Positions 18,915 to 25,529 of a DNA stretch of 64,000 nt are shown here, piece by piece (within the stretch, counting starts at the first letter, position 1; the number at the start of each line of letters is the position of its first letter). Source of the stretch: Orrella marina. GTDB lineage: Bacteria; Pseudomonadota; Gammaproteobacteria; Burkholderiales; Burkholderiaceae_B. Below the pieces are notes generated by a model. It was not told the DNA's origin. It saw nothing but the letters and a program-made list of their open reading frames with translations, and ran no database searches. The position numbers and the translations under genes were made by a program. The stretch covers positions 1,612,001-1,676,000 of the forward strand of contig NZ_CP028901.1 of assembly GCF_003058465.1 (NCBI RefSeq). The letters are read 5' to 3'.

Positions 18915-19163
18915 TCAGAAATCAATGTCGGAATCCGTCTGCGCTGACTTGTCCGGCAACATCAGCACCGTAAGCAGACTCGACAGCGCTGTCATCCCCC
19001 AGAAGGCAAAAAATCCCATGGCATATAGCCACTCCCGCGAGGGACGGATATGACCAAATATGGCCACATCAAGCGGATCGATAAAAGCAAATACAACCGC
19101 ACTGCCAACTCCGGCCAGCAGAAAGGAGGGCCAGAGAATCAGCATGATGGAGCGAGCGTTCAT
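18915..19163 (-). CDS. Small two-helix membrane protein at the end of the cbb3 oxidase cluster
   Basis: The 82-aa protein has two hydrophobic helices (about 6-26 and 44-66) and a short acidic tail, with an ATG 11 bp behind the fixH-like gene. I do not recognise the family. Its position at the end of the cco gene run suggests a role in cbb3 oxidase assembly or simple co-transcription. Confidence 0.55.
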   Translation of the reverse strand: MNARSIMLILWPSFLLAGVGSAVVFAFIDPLDVAIFGHIRPSREWLYAMGFFAFWGMTALSSLLTVLMLPDKSAQTDSDIDF

Positions 19164-19174
19164 GGACGCACTCC

Positions 19175-19399
19175 TTATTCAGCGATCGCAGAGGAGGAAG
19201 GACTCTTGTTCGAGGGTTTCTCGACCAGCAATCCTCGCTTGACGCCACCATCATAGATAGGCTGATCAGAGAAGTTCTGAAGCGCCAGCGTGATCGTGAT
19301 CGCACATCCGACGATGGCGACTGCAGGGCCAAGCATCAACAGCCATGGCCACCGCTCACGATACCAGGGTGTCGGGGCACGGTTGTCACGATCGGTCAT
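19175..19399 (-). CDS. Short FixH/CcoH-like membrane protein
   Basis: The 74-aa protein begins with a charged stretch and PWYRERWPWLLMLGPAVAI, the start of FixH/CcoH proteins, then one membrane helix (about 19-40) and a short periplasmic tail (YDGGVKRGLLVEKP). FixH/CcoH usually has about 150 residues, so the periplasmic domain is missing here. CcoH helps assemble cbb3 oxidase. The position right after ccoG is the usual place for this gene. Confidence 0.7.
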   Translation of the reverse strand: MTDRDNRAPTPWYRERWPWLLMLGPAVAIVGCAITITLALQNFSDQPIYDGGVKRGLLVEKPSNKSPSSSAIAE

Positions 19400-19414: not shown

Positions 19415-20938
19415 TTATCTGGGAAAGATGAAACTCGAGGCTTCACGTACTTCGGTGACCGCATCGCTGGAGCCATCAGCTAAGCGAGACGTGGTCACAA
19501 ACTCGATCGGATACGAGCCTGGCTCAACCTGGCTATCGTAGGGAGTCTGAACAACGACCGGCAATAGATAGTTGGCTGCCGCAGGCACTTCGATCCCTTG
19601 CGCTGGCCCCTCTCCACCGCGCCCGACCCCCACAGTCATGTCGGGCAGACCAACGGCAGATATGTCAAGTACCAGCGGAGATTCAGACGAATTCAGAATT
19701 TGAAGTCGATAAACGTTCTCGATCAGTCCACCTGGAACCTCTCGCCCAAGTGAACCCCGGTCACGAATCACATCGACACGTAAAGTCGTACGGGTCGCCA
19801 GCGATCCAAAAAACACGGCAATAATGATAATCATCAGCGTGGAGTAAATCAGGATACGCGGCCTGAACAAGCGCTTTCGCACCTGTTGGTCGCTCATTCC
19901 CTCTTCGATCCCCCGCTCACTCGTGTAGCGAATCAGCCCTTTCGGATAATCGACCTTTTCCATCACCTGGTTACAGGCGTCGATACAGGCTCCGCAACCG
20001 ATGCACATGTACTGCAAACCCTTGCGAATATCGATGCCGGTCGGACAGACCTGCACGCATATGCTGCAATCCACGCAGTCGCCCAGGCCCGCAGCCTTGT
20101 GGTCGACTTTGCGCGAGCGCGCACCACGGGGCTCTCCCCGCTTGTGATCGTAGGTAACCACATAGGTGTCATGGTCCACCATGACACTCTGAAATCTTGC
20201 GTACGGACACATGTACTTGCAGACCTGCTCACGCAGAAATCCCGCATTGCCCCAAGTCGCGAAGCTGTAGAAAAACAGCCAGAACCACTGCCAGGGACCG
20301 AGCGACAGCGCGACCAGATCCGCCCCAAGCGAACGGATCGGTGCAAAGTATCCGATAAATGTAAAACCCGTCCAGAACGCCACCACAATCCAGAGCAGGT
20401 GTTTGGTGGCCTTGATACGTAATTTCCTGACACCCAGGGGCGACTCGTCAAGGCGGATCCGGGCAACGCGATCGCCCTCCACCTTGCGTTCGATCCACAT
20501 GAAAATCTCGGTATATACGGTCTGCGGACAGGCATACCCACAGAAGAGCCGGCCAGCGACTGCTGTGAAGAGAAAGAGTGCGAGCGCCGAGATGATCAAC
20601 AACAAGGTCAGATAGATCACATCCTGTGGCCAAAGAACCATGCCGAAGATGTAGAACTTACGCGCCCCAAGATCAAACAGGACTGCCTGGCGGTCGTTCC
20701 ACTGCAACCAGGGCAGACCGTAATACAGTAACTGTGTCAGAACAACCAGAACAATCCGCCACTGCGCAAACCATCCGGTTACCGATCGCGGATAAATCTT
20801 GCGGCGAACATCCCTGAGCGTTTCCTCAAGCGACTCCGAGCCGGGGCGCACTTTCTTGGCGCCCGGGGGCCGCCATGGCGGCGGCTGCTCGGATTCTGCC
20901 TGAGGAGCCGGGTGCTCGGGTTGACCTGACGTGGACAT
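19415..20938 (-). CDS. ccoG: Cytochrome c oxidase accessory protein CcoG (polyferredoxin)
   Basis: CcoG is a membrane iron-sulfur protein involved in copper handling for cbb3 oxidase. The protein has 507 aa with five or so membrane helices (for example IVLVVLTQLLYYGLPWL), a CGYACPQTVY motif near residue 145, and two 4Fe-4S clusters in CVDCSICVQVCP and CIGCGACIDAC (about 290-325). The C-terminal third is a periplasmic immunoglobulin-like domain. It lies 17 bp behind ccoP. Confidence 0.94.
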   Translation of the reverse strand: MSTSGQPEHPAPQAESEQPPPWRPPGAKKVRPGSESLEETLRDVRRKIYPRSVTGWFAQWRIVLVVLTQLLYYGLPWLQWNDRQAVLFDLGARKFYIFGMVLWPQDVIYLTLLLIISALALFLFTAVAGRLFCGYACPQTVYTEIFMWIERKVEGDRVARIRLDESPLGVRKLRIKATKHLLWIVVAFWTGFTFIGYFAPIRSLGADLVALSLGPWQWFWLFFYSFATWGNAGFLREQVCKYMCPYARFQSVMVDHDTYVVTYDHKRGEPRGARSRKVDHKAAGLGDCVDCSICVQVCPTGIDIRKGLQYMCIGCGACIDACNQVMEKVDYPKGLIRYTSERGIEEGMSDQQVRKRLFRPRILIYSTLMIIIIAVFFGSLATRTTLRVDVIRDRGSLGREVPGGLIENVYRLQILNSSESPLVLDISAVGLPDMTVGVGRGGEGPAQGIEVPAAANYLLPVVVQTPYDSQVEPGSYPIEFVTTSRLADGSSDAVTEVREASSFIFPR

Positions 20939-20955: not shown

Positions 20956-21891
20956 TTACTGTGCGGTGCTGACAACTGCCGCACCATCACGGTGCGTCAG
21001 TCCCCAGACCCAGGCGGTCAACATGCGGATCTGCTCGGGTGACAGAATGGCTTCCTGAGCGGGCATCCGGTTATTCAGGCCGTTCATGATGGCCTCCACA
21101 ATCCTGCGCTCGGAACTACCATAAAGCCAGACACCATCAGTCAGATTGGGTGCACCGAGCATCTTATTACCCTTGCCGTCAACCCCGTGGCAGGCCACGC
21201 AGTTTGTGTCAAAGGCTCTCTTGCCACGAATGGCTGCCAGCTGGTTATGAGCCAGTCCAGAGAGCGAGCGCACATACTGGGCGATGTCGGTTGCGGTTGC
21301 GCCATCAATCACACCGTTAAACGAAGGCATGATGCCGTTGCGACCCTTGGAGATTGTCTCCGTAATCGCTTCTGGCGTGCGCGGGTAGAGTGAGTCGCCG
21401 TCAACCAGATTCGGGAAGCTTGCACTGCCCCGCGCATCCGATCCGTGGCACTGCGCACAGTAGTTCAGAAACAGGCGTTGACCAATTTGCTGGGCTTCCG
21501 GATTCTTTGCAAGCTGCTCGACCGAGATGCCGTCAAACTTGGCGTAAGTCGGACGGACAGACTCGGCATAAGCCTGGGATCGCTGTTCAAGTTCCTGCTC
21601 AGTCGTGTAACCGAGCACACCGGAGTAACTACCCAGACCGGGGAACAGAAACAGATAGCCCAGACCAAACACGCACATCAGGATGTACATGATGGTCCAC
21701 CAGCGAGGCACCGGATTGTTCAACTCACGCAGGTCGCCATCCCACACGTGACCGGTGTCACCCACATCACCTTCCTTGGTGATCTTGAGCCACTTTCTCT
21801 GTGAAACCAGCAGCCACAGACACCAGGCAATACCCAGCAAGGTGACTGCGGCAATGAATATGCCCCAGAATCCACTCGTAAAGTCGTTCAT
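20956..21891 (-). CDS. ccoP: cbb3-type cytochrome c oxidase diheme subunit CcoP
   Basis: CcoP is the diheme c subunit that passes electrons to the catalytic subunit. The protein has 311 aa with two helices near the N-terminus (FWGIFIAAVTLLGIAWCLW; WTIMYILMCVFGLGYLFLF) and two heme c motifs, CAQCH and CVACH, in the two cytochrome domains. The start codon overlaps the end of ccoQ by 4 bp (ATGA), a sign of translational coupling. Confidence 0.96.
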   Translation of the reverse strand: MNDFTSGFWGIFIAAVTLLGIAWCLWLLVSQRKWLKITKEGDVGDTGHVWDGDLRELNNPVPRWWTIMYILMCVFGLGYLFLFPGLGSYSGVLGYTTEQELEQRSQAYAESVRPTYAKFDGISVEQLAKNPEAQQIGQRLFLNYCAQCHGSDARGSASFPNLVDGDSLYPRTPEAITETISKGRNGIMPSFNGVIDGATATDIAQYVRSLSGLAHNQLAAIRGKRAFDTNCVACHGVDGKGNKMLGAPNLTDGVWLYGSSERRIVEAIMNGLNNRMPAQEAILSPEQIRMLTAWVWGLTHRDGAAVVSTAQ

Positions 21892-22070
21892 GGCTTCTTT
21901 ACCTCATCGTCTTTTGTCTGTTTTGCCTGGGTCGCCTCGTCGGGCAGATCAAAAGGCAAATTCGCAGCCTGTTCGTTGTCCTTCTTGCGACGGGCAGAAA
22001 ACGCCCACCACACGATTCCAAAGAACAGGACCATGGCGAGAATGGTCGCTATCGCGTTCAGAATCGCCAT
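21888..22070 (-). CDS. ccoQ: cbb3-type oxidase small subunit CcoQ
   Basis: The 60-aa protein has one N-terminal helix (LNAIATILAMVLFFGIVWWAF) followed by a basic and then acidic tail, the normal CcoQ layout. It stabilises the oxidase complex. It lies 2 bp behind ccoO and overlaps ccoP by 4 bp. Confidence 0.92.
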   Translation of the reverse strand: MAILNAIATILAMVLFFGIVWWAFSARRKKDNEQAANLPFDLPDEATQAKQTKDDEVKKP

Positions 22071-22072
22071 GG

Positions 22073-22750
22073 TCAGTTAGCCTTCTGCTGCGCTGCGCGT
22101 TCCTCAGCCTGACGCTGCAGCATGGCTTCCCGCACACCTGCACCCAGACTTTGCAGATAAGCCACGACGGCGTCTTCCTCCGTCTTGCCTACGAGCGCTT
22201 CAGGCGCCTGACTGATCTGCTCATCTGAATACGGCACACCCATGACGCGCAGAACTTCCATGCGCCGTGCGACATCCATGTTCTCAACCGACCTGCGTGC
22301 CAGCCACGGGTAGTTCGGCATGTTGGACTCAGGCACCACATCACGAGGATTGCGCAGGTGAATGCGATGCCACTCGTCCGAATAGCGTCCGCCAATACGG
22401 GCAAGATCCGGACCAGTGCGCTTCGAGCCCCACAAGAAGGGGTGGTCGTACACCGACTCACCCGCTATGGAGTAATCACCATAACGCTGGACTTCGGCGC
22501 GCAACATGCGAACCTGTTGCGAGTGGCAGCCCACACACCCTTCACGGATGTAGATGTCACGCCCGACGAGCTCGAGCGGCTCATAAGGCTTGACACCGGG
22601 CGCAGCCTGAGTCGTCGAGTACTGGAAGAACAGCGGAACGATCTGAACCAGACCCGCGAACACCACTACGGTGAAGCTCGCGATAATCATCCAGCCGATA
22701 TTCTTCTCGAGCGTCTCGTGAGAAAAGAAAGGAGTTTTCTGATCACTCAT
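22073..22750 (-). CDS. ccoO: cbb3-type cytochrome c oxidase monoheme subunit CcoO
   Basis: The 225-aa protein has an N-terminal membrane helix (about 15-37) and the heme c motif CVGCH in [13 protein letters not shown], together with [16 protein letters not shown], a typical CcoO block. It lies 8 bp behind ccoN in the ccoNOQP operon. Confidence 0.96.
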
Positions 22751-22758
22751 TGTTCACC

Positions 22759-24228
22759 TCAAGCTTTGGCCAGCGACGCCGCCGGGCGGATTGGATCCGC
22801 CGTCTGGGTTGGAACCGGCGGATTGATCGCTTTCTCACCTACGACAGTTTTGAATACGTTGTAGGCCATCAAGAACACACCAGCCAGGTAGAGCGTGCCA
22901 CCGGCCAGACGAATCGCGTAGAACGGATAGGTTGCTTTTACTGATTCGACGAAGCTGTAGGTGAGTGTTCCATCCAGTTCGGTTGCACGCCACATCAGAC
23001 CCTGCATCACGCCGGCAATCCACATTGACGCGATATACAGAACTACACCGATGGTTGCGATCCAGAAGTGAACCTCAATCAGACGGGTGCTCCACATCTT
23101 GTCCTTGCCCCACAGGCGCGGAATCAGGTAGTAAAGCGAGCCGAAGGTGATCATGGCAACCCAGCCCAGTGCACCAGAGTGCACGTGACCAATGGTCCAG
23201 TCCGTATAGTGCGACAGGGCATTCACGGTGCGGATAGACATCATGGAGCCTTCAAAAGTCGACATGCCATAGAACGACAGCGACACCACCATGAATTTCA
23301 GAATCGGATCCGTACGCAGTTTGTACCAGGCACCTGACAGTGTCATGATGCCGTTAATCATGCCACCCCATGACGGTGCAAGCAGAATCAGTGAGAACAC
23401 CATACCAAGAGACTGGGTCCAGTCAGGCAGCGAGGTGTAAATCAAGTGGTGCGGACCTGCCCACATGTAGGTGAAGGCAAGCGCCCAGAAATGGACGATG
23501 GAAAGGCGATACGAATAAATCGGACGGCCAGCCTGCTTGGGAATGAAGTAATACATCATGCCCAGAAAGCTGGTGGTCAGAAAGAATCCCACCGCATTGT
23601 GTCCGTACCACCACTGCACCATGGCGTCATGCACGCCGGCATACAGCGAGTACGACTTCATGAAGTAAACCGGCAGTTCCAGGTTGTTCACCACGTGGAG
23701 CATCGCGATCGTCAGGATGTACGAACCAAAGAACCAGTTGGCCACATAAATGTGCTTGACCCGACGCTTGACAATGGTGCCAAAGAAAACGAATGCATAC
23801 GCCACCCAGACCACGGTAATCAGGATGTCGATCGGCCATTCGAGTTCGGCATACTCTTTGGACGAGGTAAACCCCATTGGCAGTGAAATCGCGGCAGCCA
23901 CGATCACGGCTTGCCAGCCCCAGAAGGTGAAGGCGGCGAGCTTGTCACTGAACAGGCGAACCTGACAGGTACGCTGTACCACGTAATAAGAGGTCGCAAA
24001 GAGCGCACTGCCCCCAAACGCAAAAATCACAGCGTTGGTGTGCAGTGGACGAAGACGGCCATACGTCAGCCAGGGAATGTCAAAGTTGAGCGAGGGCCAC
24101 AGAAGCTGAGCAGCAATCAGGACCCCTACGAGCATTCCGACAATCCCCCAGACTACGGTCATGATGGCAAATTGCCTGACGACCTTGTAGTTGAAGGACT
24201 CGGCAGTTGCTGTGGGCAAACTAGCCAT
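22759..24228 (-). CDS. ccoN: cbb3-type cytochrome c oxidase catalytic subunit CcoN
   Basis: CcoN is the heme-copper oxidase core that reduces oxygen at high affinity and pumps protons. The 489-aa protein has about 12 helices. Histidines that bind hemes and CuB are visible in [42 protein letters not shown] and [15 protein letters not shown] good ribosome binding site (AAGGAAA) precedes the ATG. A 9/10 FNR box lies 73 bp upstream. Confidence 0.97.
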
Positions 24229-24344: not shown

Positions 24345-24518
24345 TCAATCACGCCGACTGTCGTTTTCCTGCCCCGGGGTGTCGTCGTCATCCAGAATGG
24401 CATGACCACTCTGTTCAGGGTCGTCATACTGGCCAGAGAACACAGCCCACCACAGTACTGCGGCGATCATCAAAACGAACAGCAATGAAACCGGCAATAA
24501 CAGATAGAGGATTTCCAT
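24345..24518 (-). CDS. ccoS: cbb3-type oxidase assembly protein CcoS
   Basis: A 57-residue frame reads MEILYLLLPVSLLFVLMIAA, then WWAVFSGQYDDPE, the CcoS signature (one helix followed by W-x-SGQ-[FY]-DD-x-E). CcoS is needed for cofactor insertion into cbb3 oxidase. It lies 6 bp behind the ccoI-like gene. The start is at 24518, and a TGA ends it at 24345. Confidence 0.9.
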   Translation of the reverse strand: MEILYLLLPVSLLFVLMIAAVLWWAVFSGQYDDPEQSGHAILDDDDTPGQENDSRRD

Positions 24519-24524
24519 GATCCC

Positions 24525-25481
24525 TTACCCAGCCATCGCGGGCGCAGAACGCGATGGACGAGTAGCCGGTATGCGATAAAGGCGCCATGCATTGGCTGCG
24601 ACAGCAACCGATGAAACAAACATTGCCAGCGCAGCCAGCCACGGAGTCACCAGCCCCACAGCAGCTAACGGCGTCGTGATCAGGTGAAAAACAAGCGATC
24701 CGTAGAGATTCTGTGAGGTGATACGACGTGTTTTCGCAAACAGCGCACGTGACTGCTCAGGATTCAGTTCTGGACAAGCTGCAAGGGTAGAGTTGGTAGC
24801 TGCCAGTGAAGACGGGGCTGCGAGCGCCAGTGCACATGGGCAACTCATGACCAGCAGAGAAACCATCACGGGAATCGCGAATACAGGCTCAACCATCCAC
24901 CAATACAGCGCAACCAGACCTGCAATGGCCAGTTGAACTACGATGAACCACATGGCAACTTTGTCGGCGCGTGCCATCAGGGGCGTGCGCAAGGCATCCA
25001 TCTCGCGCGCAAAACGCGCATTGTCCACCGACATTCTGGCCCGTTCTTCAAAAAAGCGCGCCGTCAGCAGAAAAGCGACAAACATCGTCACAGAATCAAA
25101 ATAGACTTCACCATGTCCTGAAATGGTGGCGTATACGCTCGGCACGAAGGCCGCGATCATGCTAATGGAAACAGGAACGTCCATTGTGACGTGCAAGGTG
25201 CGGATCGCTTTGAGCGTTCCCTTCCAGACGGGCCAGGCCGCATACAGGATCACAGGAATCGTCATGACCAGACTGATCCAGTTCATGAGCGTGATCGCCC
25301 AGTCCAGCACTTCAAGGTTGTCGTGACCGTAGGAGTCCCGGCGAAGGTAGCCGGGCAACGCAAACATCATGACCTGCATCATGGCAAGCCAGGCCAGCCC
25401 GAGACGCACCAGCGAACGACGACGCGCGCGCGTTTCTTCTGGCGTGAGAGTTCGGTTGAATGCGAGGATAGATTTTGCCAT
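24525..25481 (-). CDS. CcoI-like copper P-type ATPase core lacking the actuator and ATP-binding domains
   Basis: From the ATG at 25481 the protein has 318 aa, against about 750-850 for CcoI. Eight helices of a P1B ATPase are recognisable: 27-45, 60-83, 100-120, 128-143, 174-196, 200-222 with the metal motif SCPCALALA (CPC 214-216), 258-275 and 276-300 with PWLAALAMFVSSVAVAANAWRL. Missing are the N-terminal metal-binding domain, the actuator domain (between 146 and 172 only 25 residues) and the whole P/N domain with DKTGT (replaced by about 20 residues after 235). The reading frame is intact. It precedes ccoS and has a perfect FNR box. Active ATP-driven transport is not expected; a passive or scaffold role is inference. 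Confidence 0.85.
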   Translation of the reverse strand: MAKSILAFNRTLTPEETRARRRSLVRLGLAWLAMMQVMMFALPGYLRRDSYGHDNLEVLDWAITLMNWISLVMTIPVILYAAWPVWKGTLKAIRTLHVTMDVPVSISMIAAFVPSVYATISGHGEVYFDSVTMFVAFLLTARFFEERARMSVDNARFAREMDALRTPLMARADKVAMWFIVVQLAIAGLVALYWWMVEPVFAIPVMVSLLVMSCPCALALAAPSSLAATNSTLAACPELNPEQSRALFAKTRRITSQNLYGSLVFHLITTPLAAVGLVTPWLAALAMFVSSVAVAANAWRLYRIPATRPSRSAPAMAG

Positions 25482-25487
25482 GCCGCG

Positions 25488-25529
25488 ATAATAGTTCTGT
25501 CGCTGGCAACGTGCATTGATGTAAATCAA
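25488..25529 (-). promoter_or_regulatory. FNR-dependent promoter of the ccoI-like gene
   Basis: A perfect FNR box TTGAT-TTAC-ATCAA (25529-25516) is centred 41.5 bp from position 25481, the A of the ATG. A -10 TATTAT (25493-25488) lies 7 bp before it. This is the geometry of a class II FNR promoter with transcription starting at or next to the start codon, that is a leaderless message. The box overlaps the tail of the aceA terminator. Confidence 0.75.

Follow-up and report, generated by a model that had tools for sequence, protein, structure and literature searches.

A CcoI copper ATPase stripped to its membrane core is maintained beside the cbb3 oxidase genes of a bacterial clade

The window, that is, the whole stretch of 64,000 nucleotides from Orrella marina that was analysed, carries a cco gene cluster on its minus strand. 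The slot of ccoI, ahead of ccoS-ccoNOQP-ccoG, is occupied by a short gene, mini-ccoI (24525..25481, minus strand), which encodes an eight-helix CcoI membrane core of 318 aa without the N-terminal metal-binding, actuator, P and N domains. Its frame is intact and runs over 318 codons from an ATG at 25481 to a TAA at 24527-24525 on the minus strand; the plus strand read from 24525 is interrupted by stops. The 318-residue gene that the initial annotation had placed here, before ccoS, is thus confirmed, its strand being the minus one. The genes that follow lie on the same strand. Six bases separate the mini-ccoI stop from ccoS (24345..24518; 57 aa, FixS with 67.8 bits), which is followed by ccoN (22759..24228), the gene of the catalytic subunit of the cbb3 oxidase. 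Sequence and gene order give the names of ccoO (22073..22750), ccoQ (21888..22070), ccoP (20956..21891) and ccoG (19415..20938), the last encoding a cupric-reductase-type assembly factor. The cluster continues with a ccoH stub of 74 aa (19175..19399, minus strand), which covers positions 1-36 of the 150 of FixH and scores 22.7 bits against a cut-off of 23 bits. Stubs similar to it are found 3' of ccoG in many loci with the short ccoI. An 82-aa frame 3' of ccoH (18915-19163, minus strand) has no Pfam match at E ≤ 1. A tie between a short CcoI and a short CcoH was considered and rejected, since CcoH stubs of 62-63 residues, as counted from the motif, also follow full-length ccoI (L169 and L173); CcoH has 156 and 160 residues in loci L170 and L171.

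The order ccoI-ccoS-ccoN-ccoO-ccoQ-ccoP-ccoG was recovered by tblastn in 58 of 100 loci with short or full forms, and a further 22 have the same cco order plus an isocitrate lyase upstream. The other 20 are mostly cut by the ends of the loci, and a few are without a match or reordered. A single locus of the 100 (L128, from G104) has ccoN-ccoO-ccoQ-ccoP-ccoG divergent from mini-ccoI-ccoS. The full-length CcoI of Cupriavidus and Ralstonia has exactly the same slot and neighbours as the short form.

The short form is homologous to the CcoI/FixI/CtpA proteins, CopA2-type P1B ATPases such as CcoI of Rhodobacter capsulatus, and has in common with them eight predicted helices, a CPC in M4, and a Met and a Ser in M6. 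Alignment with full-length CcoI shows that all eight helices are kept, whereas the N-terminal metal-binding region, the actuator domain and the P/N domain are missing, each cut near the membrane border. In an alignment of 14 short and 27 full-length rows, where a few full-length ones are truncated at the ends of their loci, the stretch between M2 and M3 has 26 residues in the short form against a median of 131 in full-length CcoI, that between M4 and M5 has 34 against a median of 293, and a median of 21 residues precedes the first helix, against 212. The initial annotation had described eight helices, a CPC at 214-216 and a C-terminal PWLAALAMFVSSVAVAANAWRL, all of which are present, as well as short stretches in place of the actuator and P/N domains, whose borders near the membrane are borne out by the alignment. 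Its list of losses was right for these domains and overlooked that of the N-terminal copper-binding region. Four features of the CcoI family are absent from the short form: the DKTGT P domain, the N domain, the TGES actuator and the N-terminal CxxC domains. Judged from its sequence, the protein cannot be an ATPase, as the ATP site is absent.

The only Pfam match of the window protein is to the C-terminal membrane part of E1-E2_ATPase (positions 99-179 of 181). It scores 74.6 bits with the NCBIfam family of copper-translocating P-type ATPases (TIGR01511), below the curated cut-off of 397 bits, and 50 of 50 members match at E ≤ 0.001. An AlphaFold2 model, built from an alignment of 50 short forms only, is all-helical (mean pLDDT 83.7, pTM 0.77). 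When this model was compared to the PDB with Foldseek, each of the best 13 matches was a P1B ATPase (two with E ≤ 0.001), with TM-scores of 0.34-0.53 over the query and probabilities of 0.98-1.00; the top matches are CopA, HMA4 and ATP7B.

The residues of the copper sites are invariant in the short forms that reach them, apart from the change of Asn to His described here. The CPC (TM-MBS1), codons 214-216 in helix M4 (24834..24842, minus strand, position taken from the reading frame), is found in 77 of the 77 aligned short forms, which comprise the window's and 76 distinct others, two being partial. The Met of TM-MBS2 is codon 287 in helix M6 (24621..24623, minus strand), followed by Ser290-Ser291, and codon 266 in helix M5 (24684..24686, minus strand) is a His at the position of the TM-MBS2 Asn of full-length CcoI. 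Met287, Ser290 and His266 are each present in 76 of the 76 short forms that reach these positions. Full-length CcoI has an Asn at the position of His266 in 34 of 34 rows (33 YN, 1 WN), one further row (L097), cut by a contig end, being left out of this count. Excerpts of PMC8475189 give the second transmembrane copper site of CcoI as the TM5 Asn together with Met and Ser; by the alignment, the short form carries a derived, fixed His in this known copper site. Binding of Cu(I) by the CPC, His and Met of the short form is predicted from residues alone. Further along the copper path, M100 is found in 77/77 short forms, E145 in 70/77 and Asp129 (or Glu) in 76/76, and the Asp173 of M3 is replaced by Asn in 24/77. 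We take M100, E145 and Asp129 to be those assigned to the entry and exit sites of CopA.

The distribution of the short form was studied in 151 genomes of the window's family, counting its own, an even sample of a larger group with a requested completeness of at least 90%; the family appears to be the Alcaligenaceae. The initial annotation had suggested looking for homologues of this length beside ccoS, and 104 of the 151 genomes indeed hold the short form in one piece. Named loci with it come from Achromobacter, Bordetella, Pusillimonas, Candidimonas, Sheuella, Zwartia and Paenalcaligenes. An assembly error, a strain-specific deletion and chance were considered and rejected in view of these 104 one-piece copies. 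ccoN passes the cut-off in 113 genomes, 102 of which also have the short form (Fisher p = 1.3e-22, kinship ignored). The short form occurs without ccoN over the cut-off in G122 and G126, the latter with a ccoN in pieces and a stop. Eleven genomes have ccoN without the short form: 9 with a full-length ccoI near ccoN, and two drafts with neither form of ccoI (G130 and G174, 240 and 550 contigs). The remaining 36 have neither the short form nor ccoN at the thresholds used, including G117 and G090, which have pieces of the short form. The case raised in the initial annotation, that relatives might carry a full-length ccoI here, concerns only 9 of the 151 sampled genomes. In most sampled Alcaligenaceae with cbb3, the presumed copper-loading pump is without any ATP-using parts.

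Profile searches covered 399 genomes of the order and 397 of the phylum, two partly overlapping sets in which at most five candidates were scored per genome. No short-form-like score was found outside the family among the matches listed for these genomes, and the one-piece matches among those listed come from the window's family only (9/15 and 2/3 family genomes). The best E-value outside the family among the matches listed is 7.0e-51, for a piece of 145 positions, and the short forms reach 4.6e-126 or better. Of 246 plasmid records with a match, 0 cover 80% of the protein. In a quick ccoI tree, made without bootstrap from 67 short and 35 full rows, the short forms make up one side of one branch (support 100), with a stem of 0.95; in a ccoN tree of the same kind (65 and 28 rows), the short-form side also lies on one branch (support 97). 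Partial rows and the broken genes of G117 were left out of these trees. Since the short forms lie on one side of one branch, a single loss of the soluble domains, retained since, is the simplest history.

The dN/dS of mini-ccoI (NG86, 104 pairs of 33 genes) has a median of 0.13 and a range of 0.045-0.30, with 0.07 in the membrane core and 0.27 in the joints, pairs with an identity outside 80-98.5%, fewer than 280 codons or a dS outside 0.1-1.2 being left out. ccoN is more constrained, with a median of about 0.05 over 41 pairs that differ from those of mini-ccoI. Mini-ccoI is under purifying selection, the lack of which had been named at the outset as a reason to doubt the gene. The earlier idea of a maintained CcoI core unable to hydrolyse ATP agrees with the clade-wide conservation, the purifying selection, the synteny and the co-occurrence with cbb3. 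The short form is a real, clade-wide, domain-stripped CcoI, whose mechanism we infer below.

Upstream of mini-ccoI lies an FNR-type box, TTGATTTACATCAA (25516..25529, minus strand), 34 bases 5' of the ATG and centred at -41.5. Such boxes, with at most 1 mismatch and within 200 bases upstream, are found in 74 of 82 short-form loci, near-copies included, against 8 of 1640 shuffles, and mostly end 34-38 bases 5' of the ATG, so that the expression under Fnr suggested in the initial annotation fits a conserved feature. FNR-like boxes are also present 5' of most of the full-length ccoI genes examined, in many cases some 50 bases away from the closest start codon, and FNR control is therefore not peculiar to the short form. 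Six bases 5' of the ATG of mini-ccoI is a -10-like hexamer, TATTAT (25488..25493, minus strand), with no Shine-Dalgarno-like motif. Among 76 distinct upstream stretches, 43 have such a hexamer (4 or more of 6 matches) whose first base lies 12 or 13 bases 5' of the ATG, and only 1 has a Shine-Dalgarno-like motif; these features predict a leaderless operon mRNA.

Whether the cbb3 oxidase works with the short form was approached through twelve short-form genomes, picked for small size or few oxidase matches, in which the COX1 family (PF00115) and cytochrome bd (PF01654) were searched. In G031 (one contig) and G088 (50 contigs), each with a completeness score of 100%, ccoN is the sole PF00115 gene and PF01654 is absent. 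Besides the short form, each has one P-type ATPase, of the CopA type (HMA, CPC, YN, MxxSS). With ccoN as the sole COX1-family oxidase gene, no bd and one CopA-type ATPase, cbb3 very probably assembles and works in these two genomes without a CcoI ATPase. Both look like Taylorella, whose genomes are described in parts of PMC3250509 as having one terminal oxidase, of the cbb3 type. Cytochrome bd is also absent from G022 and G111, each of which has, besides ccoN, one COX1-family frame of about 755 aa that probably encodes a nitric oxide reductase; in the other eight genomes there is cytochrome bd, another COX1-family oxidase, or both. In L129 (from G117, a single-contig genome of 4.04 Mb), about 1.1 kb of DNA interrupts the short gene, and a stop lies within ccoN. 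G117 resembles Bordetella pertussis, in which ccoN is a pseudogene according to excerpts of PMC13038864.

The full P1B ATPase that the initial annotation had proposed to look for elsewhere in the genome is present, as a CopA-type enzyme, in 10 of the 12 genomes; in the other two, the candidate of G142 is cut off and the draft G172 (92% complete) has only a non-Cu-type ATPase. CopA, the CopA1-type Cu(I) export ATPase, has its membrane-domain fold and CPC site in common with the short form but is a separate full-length ATPase. SenC was found in 10 of the 10 short-form genomes tested. In the two small genomes of L174 and L175, the CopA gene is convergent with a gene adjacent to that of a SenC-like protein with a thioredoxin-like C-terminus, beyond which L175 has the apparent end of a copper nitrite reductase (names partly by inspection of the sequence). 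A split ATPase, with the A or P/N domains encoded elsewhere, was considered and found no support: no orphan actuator domain was detected with PF00122 in the 12 genomes, where it matched only frames of at least 599 aa and the short form, and TIGR01494 revealed no convincing orphan P/N-domain gene in six genomes, only full-length frames and the short form. One TIGR01494 match of 38 positions in a 291-aa frame of G007 (E 2.4e-5) was read as an ordinary HAD hydrolase.

Several scenarios may explain the retention of such a core. The most likely one, to which we give about even chances, is that mini-CcoI is an ATP-independent membrane Cu(I) relay and cbb3 assembly factor rather than a pump, pumping being left to CopA. 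In that case, Cu(I) would be taken up at the CPC and His/Met within the membrane core and passed on by falling affinity, not ATP, to SenC, to the CuB site of CcoN or to both; CcoS and CcoG would act beside the core in this hand-over, and the ATP-driven step, Cu(I) export, would fall to the separate CopA. The initial annotation had listed a passive route, a scaffold and a partner of another ATPase as roles; a copper relay or scaffold is favored by the retention of the CPC and Met and by the new invariant His, and the conduit and the pairing with CopA keep the smaller probabilities given below. The relay fits what PMC8475189 reports for R. capsulatus, since there the CPC of CcoI is essential for cbb3, a CcoI-SenC fusion is functional, and neither copper nor extra CopA replaces a lost CcoI. 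Against it, the same paper reports ATP-driven Cu(I) transport by R. capsulatus CcoI. Copper partly rescues the loss of ccoI in C. jejuni, so that the pump's supply of copper counts in that species (excerpts of PMC8267372). The draft G172, in which no Cu-type CopA was seen, speaks against a hand-over of export to CopA. In B. bronchiseptica, attempts to make a strain with cco only failed in spite of a high level of ccoN transcript, and the authors suspect deficient translation, assembly or provision of cofactors (PMC11257404, in part). A conversion of the P-type ATPase to an ATP-independent Cu(I) insertase for CuB, in which the CPC/His/Met site would hand Cu(I) to CcoN, is a tentative proposal that we regard as somewhat doubtful. 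The conserved core suggests that copper can reach cbb3 without a pump at that step.

Pseudo-enzymes that keep an enzyme fold after the loss of catalysis are known to be retained as scaffolds or ligand binders; the short form differs from them in that its catalytic domains were deleted outright and the substrate path was kept. The residues of the whole path (M100, E145, CPC, M287, Asp129 or Glu) and the CopA-like predicted fold could indicate a passive conduit, in which Cu(I) would cross from the cytosol into the periplasm along the former transport path, following an affinity gradient towards SenC/CuB. This seems unlikely, as the Asp173 of M3 is lost to Asn in the 24 sequences mentioned, there is no known switch of the core between its two faces without the actuator and P domains, and an unregulated copper leak would presumably be costly. 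The very low amount of CcoN in R. capsulatus without CcoI (parts of PMC8475189) and the purifying selection would also suit a pure scaffold for CcoN, CcoS and CcoG with no part in copper handling. Yet such a scaffold has no need of a CPC, His, Met and Ser kept in every sequence that reaches them, which makes it improbable.

A role in trans, in which full-length CopA would pair with the core and drive or load it, is supported by the frequency of CopA in the genomes examined and by the dimer-compatible size at which R. capsulatus CcoI runs (parts of PMC8475189). We consider it just as improbable as the scaffold, given that a long distance separates copA from the cco genes in G000, G007, G022 and G031 and that the evidence for CopA in G142 and G172 is respectively truncated and limited to a non-Cu-type ATPase. 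Lastly, the branches of mini-ccoI are longer than those of ccoN (stem of 0.95 changes per column) and the gene is interrupted in one genome (G117), as might be expected of a decaying relic without function. The low dN/dS, the single origin kept through the clade, the invariant residues and the FNR box render this hardly credible, and the interrupted copy of G117 adjoins a ccoN that itself has an internal stop.

No description of the short form was found in searches of the open-licence PMC literature. By its own account, PMC6769254 did not cover the class of ATPases that supplies respiratory complexes, which may be a reason why the short form went unseen. The dependence of cbb3 assembly on CcoI is called puzzling in a passage of PMC7558416: copper enters CuB from the periplasmic side, but in R. 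capsulatus a loss of CcoI is made good neither by copper nor by additional CopA (PMC8475189, in part). The Alcaligenaceae provide a natural experiment, as 102 of the 151 genomes pair ccoN with an ATPase-less CcoI, and the membrane-site and pumping roles of CcoI are therefore separable by direct tests. If the insertase reading is true, the ATP cycle of CcoI would be dispensable for cbb3 assembly in these bacteria, and its membrane copper site would not.
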